This document shows, piece after piece, positions 54,962 through 63,512 of a DNA stretch of 64,000 bases. The translations under genes were made by a program, and so were the position numbers. Every line of letters starts with the position of its first letter. Position 1 is the first letter of the stretch. This DNA comes from an uncultured Pelagibacteraceae bacterium (lineage in GTDB: Bacteria > Pseudomonadota > Alphaproteobacteria > Pelagibacterales > Pelagibacteraceae). The stretch lies in contig CACIRC010000002.1 in assembly GCA_902588895.1 (NCBI GenBank), positions 1 to 64,000 on the forward strand. The letters are read 5' to 3'. The notes under the pieces were generated by a model, which was given only the letters and a program-made list of their open reading frames with translations, searched no databases and had not been told where the DNA came from.

Positions 54962-56119
54962 ATGGAACTTTTACTCATAATTTTAATAATTATCGTTGCG
55001 TTTTTAACTTATTTATTACTAAAAAAAGAAAGAGTATTAGGAATTAATGTTGAAGATAAAAAAGAACAAGTACAAACCAAAATTATTGAAAACAAAAATT
55101 ATAGAAACAATATTTATAATTTATTAAATTATTTTCCTGAAGCCGTAATAGTAATCGATAAAGCCAAAAAAATTATATTTAGTAACAATTCTGCTACAGA
55201 TTGGTTTCAAATAAAATTAAACGAAAACATTAGTGCGTTTTTAAGAAATCCTGATTTATTAAATTCAATAGATAAAGCTTTTGAGGGAAACAATATAACA
55301 GGACTTGAAATTGAAATTAGAAATCAAGCAATTTTAAGATTAAATGTTACAGTTTATTTAGATAAAAATGAATTATTCTTTGATGAAACAACATGTATTT
55401 TATTTATTAGAGACTTAACTGAGTTTCATAAATTTCAACAACTGAAATCAGATTTTGTTGCAAATGTATCTCATGAATTAAGAACTCCTCTTCAATCAAT
55501 TAAAATGGGACTAGAGACATTTGAAAATATTTCAGATTTAAAAAAGAATTCAGAGGTAAATAATTTGTTACCTGTAATGACTTCTCAATCTGAGAGAATG
55601 GAAAATTTAATCAGAGATTTATTGTCATTATCTAAAATAGAATTACAGGAACATATACGACCAACCCATGAAATTGATCTGATTGAATTGATTGATTATG
55701 TTATTAAAACTTATGAAAAAATAATTAGTAAAAACAATATTAGTATTAAATTTAATAAAACTGAAAATTTTAAAATCGTTGGTGATAGAGATAAATTAAT
55801 AGAAATTTTTACTAATCTTATCGATAATTCAATCAAATACAGTGATAAAAATAAAGAAATTATAATCACTGCTAAGAAAGATGGTGGTTTAAACGTTGTA
55901 TCAGTAGCAGATCAAGGAATAGGTATTCCAAAAGAATCGATACACAGAATCACTGAGAGATTTTTTACTGTTGATCCAAGTAAAAGCCGAAGTGTTGGAG
56001 GTACTGGACTAGGTTTAGCCATTGTAAAACATTTGGTGTCACAACATAGAGCAGAAATGGATATTAATAGTGTAGAAAATGAAGGAACCACAATAGATAT
56101 CAAATTCAATCCACTATAA
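54962..56119 (+). CDS. phoR: Phosphate regulon sensor histidine kinase
   Basis: Sensor kinase that responds to phosphate through PstSCAB-PhoU and phosphorylates PhoB. One membrane segment at residues 1-20, a PAS-like domain (about 50-155), then HisKA with His171 in NVSHELRTPLQS and a catalytic domain with the N box IFTNLIDNSIKYS, DQGIGIP and GGTGLGLAIVKH. At 385 residues it is compact; E. coli PhoR has 431. It heads the phoR-pst-phoU-phoB block. An 85-base gap with a candidate PHO box follows. Confidence 0.93.
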   Translation: MELLLIILIIIVAFLTYLLLKKERVLGINVEDKKEQVQTKIIENKNYRNNIYNLLNYFPEAVIVIDKAKKIIFSNNSATDWFQIKLNENISAFLRNPDLLNSIDKAFEGNNITGLEIEIRNQAILRLNVTVYLDKNELFFDETTCILFIRDLTEFHKFQQLKSDFVANVSHELRTPLQSIKMGLETFENISDLKKNSEVNNLLPVMTSQSERMENLIRDLLSLSKIELQEHIRPTHEIDLIELIDYVIKTYEKIISKNNISIKFNKTENFKIVGDRDKLIEIFTNLIDNSIKYSDKNKEIIITAKKDGGLNVVSVADQGIGIPKESIHRITERFFTVDPSKSRSVGGTGLGLAIVKHLVSQHRAEMDINSVENEGTTIDIKFNPL

Positions 56120-56139
56120 TTCAACTAAAAAGTTAGTCT

Positions 56140-56173
56140 TTGTAACAAAAGTTTAACCTTCTTTTAATAAAAT
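56140..56173 (+). promoter_or_regulatory. Candidate PHO box and promoter of pstS
   Basis: Two seven-base units TTGTAAC (56140-56146) and GTTTAAC (56151-56157) are separated by AAAA, the 7-4-7 direct-repeat layout of PhoB sites. Ten bases further is a -10-like TAAAAT (56168-56173), the spacing usual when PhoB replaces the -35 contact. The same geometry recurs before pstC. Confidence 0.6.
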
Positions 56174-56225
56174 ATTTAAGAATCAATTTTATTTAGATCG
56201 AATTATGAATCTAAAAAGGAGAATT

Positions 56226-57254
56226 ATGAATAAAATAATAAGCGTAATATTTGGATTTCTTTTAGTACTAAGTTTTACAACAAATAGTTACTCAAGAGAC
56301 CAAATCAAAATTGTAGGGTCGTCAACTGTTTACCCTTATGCGACAGTGGTTGCTGAAAAATTCGGTAAAAGTGGAAAATTCAAAACTCCAGTTATTGAAA
56401 GTACAGGTACTGGTGGTGGAATGAAATTATTCTGTGCTGGTGTTGGTGTAAATCATCCAGATGTAACAAATGCTTCTAGAGCAATTAAACCAAAAGAAAA
56501 AGCATTATGTGAAAAAAATGGTGTGGCTGAAATTATTGAAATTGTAGTAGGTAATGATGGAATTTCATTTGCACATGCTGTGAGTGCTCCAGATGCAGAT
56601 TTTACAAAAGAGCAATTATGGAGAGCTTTAGCTGCTAAAGTAGATGTTGACGGTAAACTTGTTGAAAACCCATACAAAAAATGGAGTGATATAGATGCAA
56701 GTCTTCCAAACAAAAAAATTGAAATTTTAATAGCACCCCCAACATCAGGAACTAGAGATGCCTGGAATTCTTTAGTAATGGGTAAAGGATGCACTAAAAC
56801 TGCAAAATCACTTTATGATGCTGCAGGTAAAAAAGCAAAAAAAGAATGTGCTAAAATGAGAGAAGATGGTTATGCAGTTGAAGCTGGTGAAAACGACACT
56901 TTAATTGTTCAAAAACTAACATCAAACCCTGATGCTTATGGTTTCTTTGGTTATAGTTATCTGGTATCTAATAAAGATAAGGTAAAAGCTGCCTCAATCG
57001 AAGGTGTGCAACCATCTTTAGAAGGTATTCAAGATTACTCTTACCCAATTGCTAGACCATTATTCTTTTATGTTAAAAAAGCTCACATTGGTGTAGTTCC
57101 AGGTATTGAGGAATATTTAAAAGAATTTACTTCTAAAAAATCTATGGGTAACAGAGGTTATTTATCGAAAATTGGATTAGTTCCTTTAGCGACTGATAAG
57201 TACAAGGTTACTAGAACTGCTGCTTTGGATTTAAATACAATTAATATTAAATAA
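56226..57254 (+). CDS. pstS: Phosphate ABC transporter, substrate-binding protein
   Basis: High-affinity periplasmic phosphate receptor. The ATG at 56226 is preferred because AAGGAG (56216-56221) lies at a good distance before it; an ATG at 56205 would add seven residues. A signal peptide (about 1-22, ending NSYS) is followed by IKIVGSSTVYPYATVVAEKF and STGTGGGMKLFC, then PTSGTRDAW, all phosphate-site signatures. About 342 residues is normal. A terminator follows, so pstS is made in excess over the membrane subunits. Confidence 0.93.
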   Translation: MNKIISVIFGFLLVLSFTTNSYSRDQIKIVGSSTVYPYATVVAEKFGKSGKFKTPVIESTGTGGGMKLFCAGVGVNHPDVTNASRAIKPKEKALCEKNGVAEIIEIVVGNDGISFAHAVSAPDADFTKEQLWRALAAKVDVDGKLVENPYKKWSDIDASLPNKKIEILIAPPTSGTRDAWNSLVMGKGCTKTAKSLYDAAGKKAKKECAKMREDGYAVEAGENDTLIVQKLTSNPDAYGFFGYSYLVSNKDKVKAASIEGVQPSLEGIQDYSYPIARPLFFYVKKAHIGVVPGIEEYLKEFTSKKSMGNRGYLSKIGLVPLATDKYKVTRTAALDLNTINIK

Positions 57255-57270
57255 ATTTAAACTTATCCAC

Positions 57271-57304
57271 AAAAAAAGGCCGGTATTTACTGGCCTTTTT
57301 TTTT
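57271..57304 (+). terminator. Rho-independent terminator between pstS and pstC
   Basis: GGCCGGT (57278-57284) pairs with ACTGGCC (57289-57295), with one G-U pair, around a four-base loop. It is preceded by an A run and followed by a T run to 57304. It starts 17 bases after the pstS stop. The flanking A and T runs could also let it work for transcripts in the reverse direction. Confidence 0.88.
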
Positions 57305-57324: not shown

Positions 57325-57358
57325 TTGTAACAAAATTGTAACATTTGAAAGATATCAA
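57325..57358 (+). promoter_or_regulatory. Candidate PHO box and promoter of pstC
   Basis: An exact direct repeat TTGTAAC (57325-57331) and TTGTAAC (57336-57342) separated by AAAA forms a 7-4-7 PHO-box layout. Ten bases later is TATCAA (57353-57358), a -10-like box. Transcription would begin only a few bases before the pstC ATG at 57368, so the message would be leaderless or nearly so. Confidence 0.65.
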
Positions 57359-57367
57359 TCTGAGCGA

Positions 57368-58771
57368 ATGAATTTCGTATTAATCTTTTTAATAACAATA
57401 TTTTCATTATCATTATTTTTCTACGGTAGATCAAAAACTAAAAGTATTTCAGTTGAGAAAAATATAAAATTAAATGCTCTCCCAAAATTTTATGGGTATT
57501 ATCTAGTTCTATGGTGTTCGATACCTTCATTGGTATTTCTTTTAATTTGGACATTATTTGAACCAGTAATTATTAAATCAATTATTATTGAAACTGCTGC
57601 TAATCAAGGAGCAATTTTTAATGATAAAAATGAAGCTAACTTAATTTATGAAAAAATTAAAGCTATATATGCAGGAACTTATTTTGGTGATATAGATACT
57701 ATTTTAAAAGAAAGTGCGCTTTCCTACGCAAAATTTATAAATCTTTTTACTAATTCCAAAATAGTATTAATTTTTGGTATAGTAATTGCATCGGTAATTT
57801 ATTCGTTAAAAAAAATAAAAAATAATAATAAAGCAAGAGATGATGTCGAAGTTATTTTAAAAGGATTATTATTTGCATCATCATTAATTGCAATTCTTAC
57901 TACTTTAGGAATAATATTTTCACTTTTATTTGAAAGTATAAAGTTCTTTTCAGTAATAAATATATTTGACTATTTATTCGGTACCAATTGGAGTCCTCAA
58001 AGAGCATTCGTAAGAGATGCATCTGCAATTACAGCAGAGGAGTATGAGGAATTAAAAGATGCATTTGGCTTTATTCCATTAATAGCTGGCACTTCTTTTA
58101 TTGCTTTCATCGCAATGCTTGTTGCTGTTCCTGTTGGACTTTTTTCTGGAATTTATATGGCTGAATATGCGTCATTAAAAGTTAGAAGAATTTCAAAACC
58201 AATTATTGAAATCTTAGCTGGTATACCAACAGTAGTTTATGGTTTTTTTGCTGCTTTAACTGTTGGACCTTTCTTTAGACAAATTGGTGAAAATTTAGGT
58301 TTAACAGTTTCATCTGAGAGCGCTTTAGCTGCTGGATTAATTATGGGTATAATGATTATCCCATATGTCTCTTCATTATCAGATGATGTAATAAATTCTG
58401 TTCCACAATCACTAAGAGATGGATCTTATGCTGTAGGAGCTACTAAATCAGAAACGATAAAAAAAGTAGTTATACCTGCTGCTTTACCAGGAATTATTGG
58501 ATCTGTATTGTTAGCAGTCTCGAGAGCTATAGGAGAAACCATGATAGTAGTGATGGCAGCTGGTCTTGCAGCAAACTTAACAATTAATCCTTTAGAGTCC
58601 ACAACAACTATAACCACACAAATAGTAATGATCTTAGTTGGTGACCAAGAGTTTGATAGTCCAAAAACTCAATCTGCTTTTGCTTTAGGTTTAACATTAT
58701 TTATCGCTACCCTTGTTCTTAATTATATAGCTCAAAGGGCAGTTAAAAAATATCGTGAGAAATATGACTAA
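57368..58771 (+). CDS. pstC: Phosphate ABC transporter permease PstC
   Basis: Inner-membrane permease of the phosphate importer. Hydrophobic helices are at about residues 1-18, 40-62, 130-150, 170-195 and through the C-terminal permease domain, which has FSGIYMAEYAS, EILAGIPTVVYGFFA and the EAA loop LRDGSYAVGATKSETIKKVV. At 467 residues it carries an N-terminal extension over E. coli PstC (319), as in other alphaproteobacteria. It has its own PHO-box promoter after the pstS terminator. Confidence 0.93.
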   Translation: MNFVLIFLITIFSLSLFFYGRSKTKSISVEKNIKLNALPKFYGYYLVLWCSIPSLVFLLIWTLFEPVIIKSIIIETAANQGAIFNDKNEANLIYEKIKAIYAGTYFGDIDTILKESALSYAKFINLFTNSKIVLIFGIVIASVIYSLKKIKNNNKARDDVEVILKGLLFASSLIAILTTLGIIFSLLFESIKFFSVINIFDYLFGTNWSPQRAFVRDASAITAEEYEELKDAFGFIPLIAGTSFIAFIAMLVAVPVGLFSGIYMAEYASLKVRRISKPIIEILAGIPTVVYGFFAALTVGPFFRQIGENLGLTVSSESALAAGLIMGIMIIPYVSSLSDDVINSVPQSLRDGSYAVGATKSETIKKVVIPAALPGIIGSVLLAVSRAIGETMIVVMAAGLAANLTINPLESTTTITTQIVMILVGDQEFDSPKTQSAFALGLTLFIATLVLNYIAQRAVKKYREKYD

Positions 58772-60026
58772 GGAAGAAAGATTAAAAAAAAGACATAGTG
58801 CTGAAAAAAGATTTAGATTTTACGGTCTTGCATCAATTTTTTTAGCTTTATTATTTGTATTAATCTTAGTTCATAATATTTTTTCAAAAGGTAGCTCAGC
58901 ATTTATGAAAACAGCAATAAATGTTGAAGTTTTCTTCGATCAGGAATTATTAGAAATTAAAAATGGTGCCTCTGATGATGAAATTTTAGAAGCCGATTTT
59001 TTTGATATCACCATAGAAAGTTTAATAAAAGTGTATCCAGCAAAAAATGTTGAAGAGGAAGATGCTCTTATTGAACTTTTTACAACAGATGCAGAAATTG
59101 AAATTAAGAGAGCATTTTTAGAAAATAATAATTTAATAGGAAAAAAAATTAATTTAGAAATCACAGCTTCTGATGATATTGATCAATTACATAAGGGAAA
59201 TTATCCAAGAGATATACCTGAAGATAGAAGAAGAATTTCTGACTTCCAATTAGTAATTTACGATAACTTAGTTGAAAATCAAAAAATTGTAAAAAATTTT
59301 AATAATTATTTTTTCAAAAATGGAGACTCTCGGGATCCTGAGCTTGCTGGTATAGGTGGTGCTCTAATCGGATCATTCTATAGTATAATTATTTGTTTAT
59401 TATTAGCATTTCCAGTTGCAGTATTAGCATCGATTTACTTAGAAGAGTTTGCACCAAAAAATAAAATTACTGATTTTATAGAAATAAATATAAATAACTT
59501 AGCTGCTGTACCTTCAATTGTTTATGGTTTATTGGCTCTCCAAATACTTCTTGCTACAATTCAATTACCAAGATCAACACCGTTAGTAGCAGGTATTACT
59601 TTGGCGCTTATGACCCTGCCCAGAATAATTATTCCTTGTAGAGCTTCTTTGAAGGCAGTACCACCATCAATAAGAGAAGGTGCTTTAGCAGTAGGTGCTT
59701 CTAAATTTCAATCTGTTTTTCATCATGTAGTTCCATTAGCATTACCTGGCACTTTGTCAGGTACTATTATTGGATTAGCACAGGCTTTAGGAGAAACGGC
59801 CCCATTAATTTTAATAGGAATGGTAGCTTTTGTTGTTGATATTCCATCAACGCCAATTGACCCTTCTTCTTCTTTACCTGTACAAGTATATTTATGGTCA
59901 GAGTCTGCTGAAAGAGGATTTGTTGAAAAAACTTCAGCAACAATAATGATGTTGTTAAGTTTTTTAATTGTAATGAATTTCTTAGCAGTATACTTAAGAC
60001 AAAAGTTTGAAAAGAGATGGAATTAA
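58764..60026 (+). CDS. pstA: Phosphate ABC transporter permease PstA
   Basis: Second permease. An N-terminal DUF3333-like region (about residues 15-185) with one membrane helix and an acidic, probably periplasmic domain precedes the permease helices. [29 protein letters not shown] and the EAA loop [21 protein letters not shown] identify the family. The ATG at 58764 is used; a GTG nine bases earlier is possible. About 420 residues is usual for alphaproteobacteria. It overlaps the pstC end by eight bases. Confidence 0.92.
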
Positions 60027-60787
60027 TGAACGAAATTAAAATAAAATCAAAAAATTTAAATGTCTACTATGGTGAAAAACAAGCTTTGTTTGATGTAAAT
60101 TTAGATTTAAACGAAAAAGAAGTTACTGCTTTAATAGGTCCATCAGGATGTGGAAAATCTACCTTTATTAGATGTATAAACAGAATGAACGATGTAATTG
60201 ATATTTGTAAAGTATCTGGAAACATTGAAATAGACGGTGTTGAAATCAATGATAAAAATTTAGATGTAGTATCTTTAAGAGAAAGAGTAGGTATGGTTTT
60301 TCAAAAACCAAATCCATTTCCAAAAAGCATATATGATAATATTTCTTATGGTCCAAAAATTCATGGAAAAGGTGAAACTAAAAGTGAATTAGATGAAATT
60401 GTAGAAAATAGTCTTAAGAAAGCTGCTTTATGGGAGGAAGTTAAAGATAGACTCGATGAACCAGGAACTGGCCTTTCTGGTGGTCAACAACAACGTCTTT
60501 GTATTGCAAGAGCAATTTCTGTTAACCCTGAAGTTATATTAATGGACGAACCTTGTTCTGCCTTAGATCCTATTGCTACGGCAAAAATTGAAGAATTAAT
60601 TGATGAACTAAAAAAAACTTACACTATTGTAATTGTGACGCATTCAATGGCACAAGCAGTTAGAGTTTCGCAGAAAACAGGGTTTTTTCATCTTGGTAAA
60701 CTAATTGAAGTAGGCAAAACAGAGAAAATTTTTAAAAATCCTGACAATAAAATGACACAAGACTATATTACAGGTAGATTTGGATAA
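60026..60787 (+). CDS. pstB: Phosphate ABC transporter ATP-binding protein PstB
   Basis: ATPase of the phosphate importer. Walker [10 protein letters not shown], the Q-loop [16 protein letters not shown] specific to PstB, the signature [14 protein letters not shown] and Walker [13 protein letters not shown] are present. The ATG at 60026 (overlapping the pstA stop as TAATG) is preferred; an ATG at 60017 would add three residues. The length of about 253 residues is normal. It ends 3 bases before phoU. Confidence 0.94.
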
Positions 60788-60790
60788 ATT

Positions 60791-61483
60791 ATGAGCAACG
60801 AGCATACAGTAAAATCTTATGAAGAAGAATTAAGATATTTAATAGACTCTGTAATAAAAATGGGAAGTCTAACTGAGTCTCAATTAGTTGACTCTATGGA
60901 TGCAATTATCAAAGTAGATAAAGACTCGATTGATAAAATTATTAAGAGCGATGATGAAATTAATAAGTTTAGATCTAAGATTGATACTCAAATAATGACT
61001 TTGTTAGTAAAGCGAGCACCAATGGCAATAGATTTAAGAGAAACAATCAGTTCATTGAAAATTTCCCAAGATTTAGAAAGGATTGGTGATTTATCTAAAA
61101 GTAACGCAAAAAAAGTTAAGCCTCTTCCATTAGATTTACCAGAGGAACTTTTAGGAAATTTAAAAAGACTAGGAGAATTAGTAATTAAACAATTAAATGA
61201 CGTACTAGATAGTTACGTTAACAAAAACTATGATAAAGCAAAAGAAGTATGGGAAAAAGACGAACAAGTAGACGATCTTACTTATATAGCCATGGAAAGT
61301 GTAATTGATTTTCTTTCAAAAGATAAAAAAAATTTAGATTTTTCTACTCATTTAATTTTTGCTACAAAAAATCTAGAAAGAGCTGGTGATCATATAACTA
61401 ATATTGCTGAGTCAATATGTTTTTTAATTAAAGGCGAGTATCTAAAAGGAAGTAGACCTAAAGGAAAAGTTATTGAAAAATAA
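60791..61483 (+). CDS. phoU: Phosphate signalling protein PhoU
   Basis: Negative regulator linking PstSCAB with PhoR. Two repeats of a three-helix bundle are visible, each with the metal-binding pattern: RETISSLKISQDLERIGDLSKS (about 78-99) and ATKNLERAGDHITNIAE (about 194-210). The length of 230 residues is normal. It sits between pstB and phoB, two bases from the latter, the order typical for alphaproteobacteria. Confidence 0.94.
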   Translation: MSNEHTVKSYEEELRYLIDSVIKMGSLTESQLVDSMDAIIKVDKDSIDKIIKSDDEINKFRSKIDTQIMTLLVKRAPMAIDLRETISSLKISQDLERIGDLSKSNAKKVKPLPLDLPEELLGNLKRLGELVIKQLNDVLDSYVNKNYDKAKEVWEKDEQVDDLTYIAMESVIDFLSKDKKNLDFSTHLIFATKNLERAGDHITNIAESICFLIKGEYLKGSRPKGKVIEK

Positions 61484-61485
61484 AA

Positions 61486-62166
61486 ATGAATGGTAAAATA
61501 TTTATTATTGAGGACGAACCTTCAATAATTCAATTAGTTCAACATAATCTTGAAAAAAACGGTTTTATAGTTTCATCATCAGTAAATGGAAATGATGGTT
61601 TAAAAGAATTAAAAAAGTTTCAACCAGATTTGCTTTTATTAGATTGGATGCTGCCCGATCTTTCAGGAGTTGAAATTTGCAAAAATATTAGAAAAGACAC
61701 TAGTTACAATAATTTACCTGTAATTATGTTAACTGCTAAAGGTGAAGAAGAGGATAAAATAAAAGGGTTAGATAGTGGGGTAGACGATTATTTAACCAAA
61801 CCTTTCAGTTTCAATGAACTAATGGCGAGAATTAAAGCTGTTTTAAGAAGATCTAATCCAAATACTGTATCTGATAATTTAAAGTTTGATGACTTAATGT
61901 TAGATAGAATTGAAAAAAGAGTTTTTAGAGACGATCAAGAAATTAAACTTGGGCCAACTGAGTTTAGGTTATTAGAGTTTTTTTTAACAAATCCTAAAAG
62001 AGTTTATTCTCGAGATCAAATACTAGAGAGTGTTTGGCCAAATAATGTAAATGTTGAGAGCAGAACTATAGATGTTCACATTAGAAGATTGAGACAATCA
62101 GTTAACTTAAAAAATAAAAAAGAATTAATTAGAACAGTTAGATCTTCTGGTTATTCACTTATTTAA
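61486..62166 (+). CDS. phoB: Phosphate regulon response regulator PhoB
   Basis: OmpR-family activator of phosphate-starvation genes. The receiver domain has acidic residues at 10-11, phospho-acceptor Asp53 in LLLDWMLPDLSG and Lys in DYLTKPFS. The C-terminal winged helix (about 130-226) ends VESRTIDVHIRRLRQ and IRTVRSSGYSLI. The length of 226 residues is normal. Its expected targets include the two PHO-box promoters upstream. The last 12 bases overlap the convergent channel gene. Confidence 0.95.
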   Translation: MNGKIFIIEDEPSIIQLVQHNLEKNGFIVSSSVNGNDGLKELKKFQPDLLLLDWMLPDLSGVEICKNIRKDTSYNNLPVIMLTAKGEEEDKIKGLDSGVDDYLTKPFSFNELMARIKAVLRRSNPNTVSDNLKFDDLMLDRIEKRVFRDDQEIKLGPTEFRLLEFFLTNPKRVYSRDQILESVWPNNVNVESRTIDVHIRRLRQSVNLKNKKELIRTVRSSGYSLI

Positions 62167-62811
62167 GAAAATCTTTTTCACCAAATACACAGCAATCAAC
62201 ATACCAATTAATTCAGCAACTATATAAAAAGGAGTGTTTAAATAACTTATTCCAGTAAAAGACTCTGTGAATGTTCTTGCTATTGCTACAGCAGGATTTG
62301 CAAAAGATGTTGATGAAGTAAACCAATAACCAGCTGTAATATATAACCCAACAGATGCAGCTACAGTAATTTTACCTGACTTCATAGATCCAAAAATAAT
62401 GATTATTAGTCCTAATGTTGCAATAATTTCTGATACAAAAATATAGATCCCATCTCTTGATTTTGTTGATAATTCAAAAATCTGATGTTCAAAAAAGAAA
62501 TTTGCTAAAGCTACACCTAGTAAACATCCAAGGATCTGAGCACAAATATAAAAGGGTAGAAGGTGTTTTTTTAACTTTCCAGTAATTGTCATAGCAATAC
62601 TTACAAATGGATTGAAATGAGCCCCAGACACATCAGCAAATACTGTTATTAAAACAAACAATCCAGCTCCAGTTGCTATAGTATTTGCAATTAGCATTAC
62701 CGCTGTATCATTGGTAAGATTTTCTGCCATTAAACCTGACCCAACTATGATCATTACTAGAAAGCAACTTCCAATAAATTCTGAAAGAAAATATTTATTT
62801 TTATTTTTCAT
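62155..62811 (-). CDS. MIP-family channel (aquaglyceroporin-like)
   Basis: A six-helix major intrinsic protein channel of 218 residues. The two half-loops are visible: the first is AHFNPFVSIAM, in which the usual Asn-Pro-Ala is Asn-Pro-Phe, and the second is FANPAVAIARTFT, with a standard Asn-Pro-Ala followed by the filter arginine. The start lies inside the end of the arsenate reductase gene. In rhizobia a channel of this kind (AqpS) beside arsC carries arsenite out of the cell, and the same role is the best guess here, though water or other small solutes are possible. Confidence 0.88.
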   Translation of the reverse strand: MKNKNKYFLSEFIGSCFLVMIIVGSGLMAENLTNDTAVMLIANTIATGAGLFVLITVFADVSGAHFNPFVSIAMTITGKLKKHLLPFYICAQILGCLLGVALANFFFEHQIFELSTKSRDGIYIFVSEIIATLGLIIIIFGSMKSGKITVAASVGLYITAGYWFTSSTSFANPAVAIARTFTESFTGISYLNTPFYIVAELIGMLIAVYLVKKIFLNK

Positions 62812-63232
62812 CTAGCCAATCTTTAATTTTATTGCTTATAATATTGAAAGTGTTTCTAATGATTATTTGCTTTTCTTCGTCATTAGCATTTTGAAGTTTA
62901 GTTACTGGATCGTCTATATCCCAGTGTATAATTTGATTTTTATCAGGCCAAATAGGACATACCTCATTATTTGCGTTATTGCATACCGTTATTATATGAT
63001 CCATCTTTATTTCATTATTGATAAACTCTTCAAAGTTTTTAGAACTATAATTAGTTAGATCATAATTTTTATTTTTCTCTAAAAAACTTCTAACATCAAT
63101 ATTGATTTCTCCAGATGGGTTACTACCAGCACTAAAAGCTTTTAATTTATTTGAGTATTCGTTATTAATAATACTCTCAGCAATAATGCTTCTTGCTGAA
63201 TTTCCTGTGCATACAAATAAAATATTTTTCAT
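62801..63232 (-). CDS. arsC: Arsenate reductase, low-molecular-weight phosphatase type
   Basis: Reduces arsenate to arsenite using a cysteine relay. The P-loop C-X5-R covers Cys8 to Arg14 (CTGNSAR), the second and third cysteines are Cys84 and Cys92 in VCNNANNEVCPIWPD, and HWDIDDP supplies the aspartate. This three-cysteine set indicates the thioredoxin-coupled class, not a tyrosine phosphatase. The length of 143 residues is typical. It overlaps the channel gene by 11 bases, and the next gene starts on its last base, so the three form one operon facing the phoB end. Confidence 0.92.
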   Translation of the reverse strand: MKNILFVCTGNSARSIIAESIINNEYSNKLKAFSAGSNPSGEINIDVRSFLEKNKNYDLTNYSSKNFEEFINNEIKMDHIITVCNNANNEVCPIWPDKNQIIHWDIDDPVTKLQNANDEEKQIIIRNTFNIISNKIKDWLDEK

Positions 63233-63456
63233 TAAAAAATAATTTTATAAATACCAATTACAAATAATGGAATTTGTAATCCAAAATTTGTTAAAATAGC
63301 CTTATCCTTTAATAAGAAACCCGAAATTGTCCATCCAACAACTCCAAGTCCATGAAAATAAATATTCAGTGGGTAAATATTAAGATTTGTAAGTAAAATA
63401 CCAGTTAACACTAAGAGTGTACTGATCCACTTTAGATATTTTTTTAAAAATGACAT
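63232..63456 (-). CDS. Small membrane protein of unknown function, upstream in the arsC operon
   Basis: A 74-residue protein with two to three hydrophobic segments (about 9-27, 32-48 and 55-74) and few charges except at the very start and a KDKA turn. I cannot assign a family. It shares a base with arsC and is probably the first gene of the arsC-channel operon, so it is translated with it. The composition and tight packing suggest a real gene. Confidence 0.6.
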   Translation of the reverse strand: MSFLKKYLKWISTLLVLTGILLTNLNIYPLNIYFHGLGVVGWTISGFLLKDKAILTNFGLQIPLFVIGIYKIIF

Positions 63457-63512
63457 TCAAAATTTATATGAATGTTTTGTTAAAGATTTATTACAATAAA
63501 CTTTAATGTGAT

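Follow-up and report, generated by a model that had tools for sequence, protein, structure and literature searches.

This study concerns a 64,000-nucleotide stretch of DNA (the window) from an uncultured member of the Pelagibacteraceae, in which an AT-rich direct repeat and a -10-like hexamer stand ahead of pstS. The question raised by this locus is whether the repeat constitutes a site for the phosphate regulator PhoB and, if so, whether its spelling betrays a regulator with altered DNA-binding preference. Many SAR11 bacteria live in phosphate-scarce waters. They are also, according to the available text of PMC12421899, the ocean's most abundant heterotrophic bacteria. With a probability that we place at about 0.93, the analysis identifies positions 56140–56173 as a PhoB-activated promoter of pstS; we infer the binding of PhoB, the activation of pstS and its phosphate dependence from sequence comparison. 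The original prediction of a PHO box before pstS is thereby backed by conservation, a genome scan, the identity of PhoB and promoter geometry, and its second proposal, a drift in binding preference with base composition deduced from the AT-shifted repeat unit, finds no support.

Data and methods

The host genome totals 1.15 Mb in 36 contigs and is 79.6% complete. The PstS protein encoded in the window is 97–100% identical to the PstS of seven Pelagibacteraceae single-cell records, which places the host in SAR11. The SAR11 comparison set was assembled from the top 30 pstS loci of a search that matched 35 of 61 genomes, the top 80 among at least 581 confirmed loci, and a group of arsC loci. Genomes occurring twice in this set were removed by de-duplication, the thresholds for which vary between analyses and lead to pstS totals of 32, 33, 43, and 31 or 33. 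The SAR11 matrix was derived after leaving out 28 of 101 candidate sites that scored below 38 (22 pstC and 6 arsC sites, mostly from lineages without those boxes); its sites had originally been chosen with a -10 term, which leaves some -10 information in the matrix.

Two profiles were used for genome scans. Profile R1, built from sequence only, comprises 42 sites and includes the three sites of the window in its training set, whereas profile R2 was trained on 17 distant pstS sites only. The class-wide set contained mostly one genome per family, with 88 usable pstS upstreams from 90 loci that form part of a longer match list, and half-site pairs in this set were scored neutrally between A and C at position 5. 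PhoB was compared over 61 distinct sequences drawn from 83 loci.

Gene neighborhood and promoter geometry

A gene for a phoR-like sensor kinase (54962–56119, plus strand; TIGR02966 289.3 bits, below the cut-off of 334.2) precedes pstS, which encodes the phosphate-binding protein (56226–57254, plus strand; TIGR02136 148.5 bits, below the cut-off of 206.6). The best start of pstS, 56226, has AGGAG ahead of it, and an alternative, longer reading begins at 56205. On the same strand follow pstC (57368–58771; TIGR02138), pstA (58755–60026; TIGR00974), pstB (60017–60787; TIGR00972) and phoU (60791–61483; TIGR02135), all above their respective cut-offs, and phoB (61486–62166), whose product is the presumed reader of the boxes and exceeds the cut-off of the PhoB equivalog model TIGR02154 (312.9 against 296.2 bits). 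Convergent with phoB, the minus strand encodes a MIP-family aquaporin (62155–62811; PF00230 above and TIGR00861 below cut-off), an LMWP-family arsenate reductase, arsC (62801–63232; PF01451 above cut-off, TIGR02691 at 67.3 bits below its cut-off of 174.3), and a small membrane-protein-like ORF of 74 amino acids (DUF6552; 63232–63456).

The sequence upstream of pstS reads exactly as originally described, with TTGTAAC-AAAA-GTTTAAC at 56140–56157 followed, after ten bases, by TAAAAT. Half-site 1 (TTGTAAC, 56140–56146, plus strand) and half-site 2 (GTTTAAC, 56151–56157, plus strand), both identified from sequence, relatives and profiles, form a pair of direct 7-base repeats set 4 bases apart, with the 11-bp period of a PHO box. 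They equal the canonical CTGTCAT at only four and three of seven positions, respectively, and lie inside the spread of known boxes, sharing the core T-G/T-T-A/C-A in the manner of the phoE type. The ten bases at 56158–56167, CTTCTTTTAA, separate half-site 2 from the -10 hexamer (56168–56173, plus strand), which therefore begins exactly 10 bp past the box, as in known PHO promoters. The position ahead of phosphate-starvation genes is kept in relatives.

In SAR11 pstS promoters the spacer is filled by a third half-site-like unit, here TTTTAAT (56162–56168, plus strand), whose final T is common to the unit and the -10 hexamer; it was recognized from pairs at distance 22 in relatives and from a degenerate unit across the class. 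Counting only significant sites, chosen on their half-sites alone, a TA dinucleotide was found ten bases past half-site 2 in 20 of 30 pstS, 14 of 16 pstC and 8 of 11 arsC-operon sites. A generic sigma-70 promoter scan revealed nothing unusual (44 sites against 48.4 expected).

Scans of the host genome

Within the window, a loose pattern allowing up to two mismatches returned 6 matches against 7.2 expected, and a related pattern applied to the whole genome returned 101 against 116 for the reversed control. Loose patterns, yielding sites no better than chance, were dropped in favor of profiles. In the genome scan for TKGTAAC-N4-KTKTAAC that had been put forward as a check, the exact form matched only the pstS and pstC sites, and a single mismatch added 4 places against 15 in the reversed control. 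An exact degenerate 18-mer occurred once in the genome.

Profile R1, with which 150 of 3430 first-look candidates were scored, assigned 26.3 bits to the pstC box, 26.2 to the pstS box and 23.6 to the site before the arsC operon, with the next match at 13.1 bits, a result that is partly circular because R1 was trained on the three sites of the window. Profile R2 ranked the pstS box of the window first (25.6 bits) and the pstC box, which is of a kind outside its training, second (20.5 bits), with the next match at 13.2 bits; the arsC-operon site obtained 12.8 bits, placing it at background level (rank 4 of 41).

Conservation in SAR11 and across the class

Pairs of TKTAAY 11 bp apart are present in 25 of 33 de-duplicated SAR11 pstS upstreams of 150 bp (87 of 112 when duplicates are kept); shuffled sequences yield 0.09 on average and never more than 2. 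The pattern was picked after viewing the sequences, and the spacing profile serves as its own control: a distance of 10 bp was seen in 3 of the 33 upstreams, distances of 12 to 19 bp in none, and a distance of 22 bp in 23. When scored with the SAR11 matrix, which was trained on these sites, 30 of 31 de-duplicated pstS upstreams reached p ≤ 0.01. Upstream of pstC, the 11-bp TKTAAY pair was detected in 16 of 29 de-duplicated sequences (46 of 112 in all), and 15 of 31 de-duplicated pstC upstreams contained no pair at p ≤ 0.01, one of them (L014) being borderline at p 0.02.

Across the class, in genomes with GC contents from 0.26 to 0.72, a significant 11-bp pair was found in 56 of 88 pstS upstreams (p ≤ 0.02, with about 2 expected by chance), the other 32 having no significant pair. 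A degenerate third half-site overlapping the -10 was also observed in many pstS promoters of the class (L298–L387). Our reading of the repeat as a PHO box is based on three features that recur among SAR11 relatives and in many further Alphaproteobacteria: the 11-bp spacing, the location before pstS and the 10 bp that separate the box from the -10.

Additional sites in the phosphate island

A second PHO box, the perfect repeat TTGTAAC AAAA TTGTAAC (57325–57342, plus strand), lies before pstC and is followed after 10 bp by a -10-like TATCAA (57353–57358, plus strand). Between pstS and pstC there is an intrinsic terminator (57271–57302, plus strand) of 14 pairs, with a folding energy of -18 kcal/mol and a z-score of -6.67. 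With this strong terminator and a PHO box of its own behind it, pstCAB-phoUB seems to have a Pho promoter separate from that of pstS.

A third PHO box, TTGTAAT AAAT CTTTAAC (63479–63496, minus strand), precedes the small-ORF/arsC/aquaporin operon, with a -10-like TATAAA (63463–63468, minus strand) 10 bp after it. This predicted site makes a weaker case than the pstS and pstC boxes and, because R2 scores it at background, it rests on its own conservation. Using a matrix trained on such sites, 11 of 17 de-duplicated arsC upstreams passed p ≤ 0.01 and one more obtained p 0.015; in the remaining five (L073, L074, L075, L077, L112), arsC was seen by eye to stand directly after the end of phoB. The same arrangement, again judged by eye, is found at L080, and in all six loci it would provide another route to Pho control. 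Independent support for the arsC-operon site comes from the 2.3-fold rise of arsC in the phosphate-starved SAR11 strain HTCC7211 (PMC6426599). The available text of that paper also reports that arsC is paired with the aquaporin gene and that the pair is linked to low phosphate, and the words PhoB and promoter are absent from its main text as available; the box before the arsC operon is new here. In the relative G012, in which arsC was not found, the box is kept before the small DUF6552 ORF, so that the small protein is part of the island with or without arsC.

Four nucleotides upstream of half-site 1 of the pstS box there is a conserved palindrome-like element, CAACTAAAAAGTTA (56122–56135, plus strand). 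Of the 33 de-duplicated pstS upstreams, 23 contain either this sequence or a center variant that shares its arms, at a constant phase relative to the PHO array. Those without it are L011, L012, L015, L016, L023 and L125, which belong to the other family or resemble it, and L112, L116, L118 and L119. The exact sequence has one copy per genome, always at pstS, in the six same-family genomes searched (6/6), and is absent from the one other-family genome searched. Allowing one mismatch, counts in the genomes searched were no higher than in the reversed control, and allowing two mismatches within the window there was no enrichment (5 against 4.1 expected). We also considered the element as a further PHO half-site and rejected this, as by eye it does not fit the half-site consensus; it may instead represent an RNA hairpin or an UP element. 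As a candidate regulatory element, the single-copy sequence beside the pstS box is new here.

Extent of the predicted regulon

Matches to R1 drew attention to plcP, a gene outside the training set that protein search located in 28 of 101 genomes of the genus; the host genome has no plcP in its sequenced part. We read the metallophosphoesterase concerned as PlcP because it belongs to family PF00149 and because the next ORF at L230 is, by eye, glycosyltransferase-like; an LpxH-type NCBIfam model remained below cut-off on this protein. The gene order at L230 is thus that of the plcP-agt arrangement of HTCC7211 described in the available text of PMC4796936. The best pair upstream of plcP scores 12.2–19.5 in all 27 loci with at least 100 bp of upstream sequence, one locus with 69 nt having been left out, and each of the 11 de-duplicated plcP loci attains a shuffle p ≤ 0.002 with a pair situated 80–91 nt before the start.

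In relatives, we inspected 21 sites in 20 regions, chosen by hand among the matches listed. Five of these lie before a metallophosphoesterase gene, three are of the arsC-operon type (one of them, at a contig end, assigned by sequence only), two precede an ABC ATPase gene, one precedes phoR and two precede other small ORFs; two have no nearby ORF, one falls in a reverse frame and five fall inside a frame of 397–398 amino acids. Some of these profile matches, namely the five inside the frame and the one in reverse, are probably due to chance. The in-frame match is a strong PHO-like one, occurs in five genomes (L232, L233, L238, L247, L248) and, in L232 and L233, lies some 1.7 kb ahead of the pstS box; it may reflect chance or a promoter for the downstream gene. 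The ABC ATPase genes preceded by a PHO-like pair are those of L235 and L236 (genomes G009 and G017), and the L235 product belongs to the UgpC subfamily, scoring above cut-off.

The three strong R1 matches of the host genome span 7.4 kb. In the single-contig relatives G012 and G106, scanned with stricter filters that lose weak matches, all three profile matches at E ≤ 0.03 (3/3) fall within 6.3 and 7.3 kb, respectively, at the pst island. What speaks against strict confinement is that the sites before the ABC ATPase genes in G009 and G017, as well as some plcP sites, are on contigs other than those of the listed pst matches. In the genomes where their distribution is visible, strong sites appear almost restricted to the pst island, a feature reported here for the first time and one to be read with the proviso that weak sites may be missed.

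Alternative explanations

If SAR11 PhoB had evolved a new, AT-shifted DNA preference, its mark would be sought at position 5 of the half-site, which is A in 90% of 146 SAR11 units against 30–36% in the strong class-wide sites (the higher-scoring 47 of the 56), where C accounts for 60–70%. Genome composition goes some way in the same direction: in the class set, A at position 5 amounts to 1.14 of 2 (about 57%) at GC below 0.4 (n = 7) and to 0.53 of 2 (27%) at GC above 0.55 (n = 38), a weak trend (Spearman rho -0.27, p 0.045, uncorrected for five measures) that SAR11 exceeds. Positions 1, 3 and 7 exhibited no significant trend with GC in the same set.

Against an evolved preference, the recognition-helix residues are almost unchanged. 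The helix of the window's PhoB, RTIDVHIRRLR, differs from the RTVDVHIRRLR of E. coli only by V195I, and all 61 distinct SAR11 PhoB sequences share R193, T194, D196, H198, R201, R203, T217, G222 and Y223 (E. coli numbering), several of which we take to be DNA contacts; R200 is found in 57 and R219 in 60 of the 61. The E. coli phoE box, moreover, belongs to the same type, and the SAR11 matrix gives it 17.8 against a SAR11 median of 17.1. Units of the TGTAAC type are present in GC-rich genomes of the class, C occupies position 7 in 68% of SAR11 units, a shift away from AT, and some SAR11 sites (L010, L063, L116) still contain CTGTCAT or TTGTCAT units. We accordingly regard an evolved, AT-shifted preference as improbable. 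On sequence comparison, composition accounts for a small part of the spelling, SAR11 with its 90% A exceeds the trend, and the helix presents no accompanying change; the shift at position 5 looks like a matter of site usage within an unchanged preference, weakly linked to composition. Because SAR11 lies beyond the GC trend, a small change of preference may nonetheless have taken place. The available text of a review notes that species differ in their PHO box consensus and mentions GC content (PMC4415409).

The repeats might also be read by another OmpR-family regulator, for instance the OmpR of EnvZ/OmpR, instead of PhoB. Tandem half-sites are general for regulators of the OmpR/PhoB family, as stated in the available text of PMC4117788, and EnvZ/OmpR is among the four two-component systems listed for SAR11 in that of PMC13198564, but the strongest sites lie at phosphate-linked loci (pst, the arsC operon and plcP), and the layout is the same as in E. 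coli PhoB promoters, making such a reader very improbable. That the repeats are chance AT-rich sequence, as an AT-rich genome and loose patterns matching no more often than controls might suggest, is already contradicted by conservation specific to the 11-bp period, both in SAR11 relatives and across the class, and by rarity in the genome, and merits next to no credence.

Proposed mechanism and implications

We therefore retain the interpretation of 56140–56173 as a PhoB-activated pstS promoter, in which the repeat is very probably a genuine and ordinary PhoB docking site, one of three in a small phosphate island. Under phosphate starvation, PhoR would phosphorylate PhoB, and a PhoB dimer would bind head to tail on TTGTAAC and GTTTAAC with a period of 11 bp. 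Bound PhoB would then stand in for a -35 element and recruit RNA polymerase to TAAAAT, the -10 that lies ten bases further downstream. A like element would drive pstCAB-phoU-phoB behind the terminator, and another on the opposite strand would probably drive the small-ORF/arsC/aquaporin operon.

A broader and decidedly tentative proposal, which we deem possible and rather doubtful, is that PhoB, once a global regulator, has become an almost local one in streamlined SAR11 genomes. The bulk of its regulon (pstS, pstCAB-phoUB and the DUF6552 protein with or without arsC-aquaporin, together with plcP in some genomes) would then form a portable, self-regulated phosphate/arsenate island, and the pstS promoter would carry a second element, the clade-specific, single-copy CAACTAAAAAGTTA, held in constant phase with the PHO array and read by a further factor.

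With a SAR11 PHO promoter model checked in silico on an untrained gene, the Pho regulon should become readable from single-cell genomes, and the link between arsC and low phosphate gains a candidate promoter. The results also speak against reading an AT-rich box as the mark of a changed PhoB.

Comparison with known Pho promoters

Pho boxes have been predicted bioinformatically in plcP clusters of marine bacteria, according to the available text of PMC4796936, and SAR11 strain HTCC7211 is among those whose clusters it describes. No SAR11 PHO box sequence was found in the SAR11 and Pelagibacter Pho literature surveyed, as far as its text was available, and one may be printed in a figure or supplement of PMC4796936. 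The pstS promoters of the class resemble those of SAR11 in having a degenerate third unit (GT in place in 21 of the 47 strong sites) and TA at the place of the -10 (26 of 47), and differ from them in that position 5 is mostly C.

The six E. coli promoters examined provide the closest frame of reference for this geometry. The boxes of E. coli pstS, phoA and phoB consist, like the SAR11 box, of 7-4-7 direct repeats with a 10-bp gap to the -10, and differ from it by a C at position 5, being of the CTGTCAT type. With phoE, they make up the four of six promoters in which the -10 begins 10 bp past half-site 2; the upstreams of ugpB and phnC, the other two, contained no clear box with a -10 at that distance. 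The E. coli phoE gene, which we take to be a PhoB target, differs from the SAR11 case in coding for a porin rather than for PstS and in having a spacer, AATCTCAGGT, without an evident third unit. Its box in E. coli K-12 MG1655, CTGTAAT-atat-CTTTAAC followed after ten bases by TAAAAA, has the half-site type, the 11-bp period and the -10 gap of the SAR11 pstS box.
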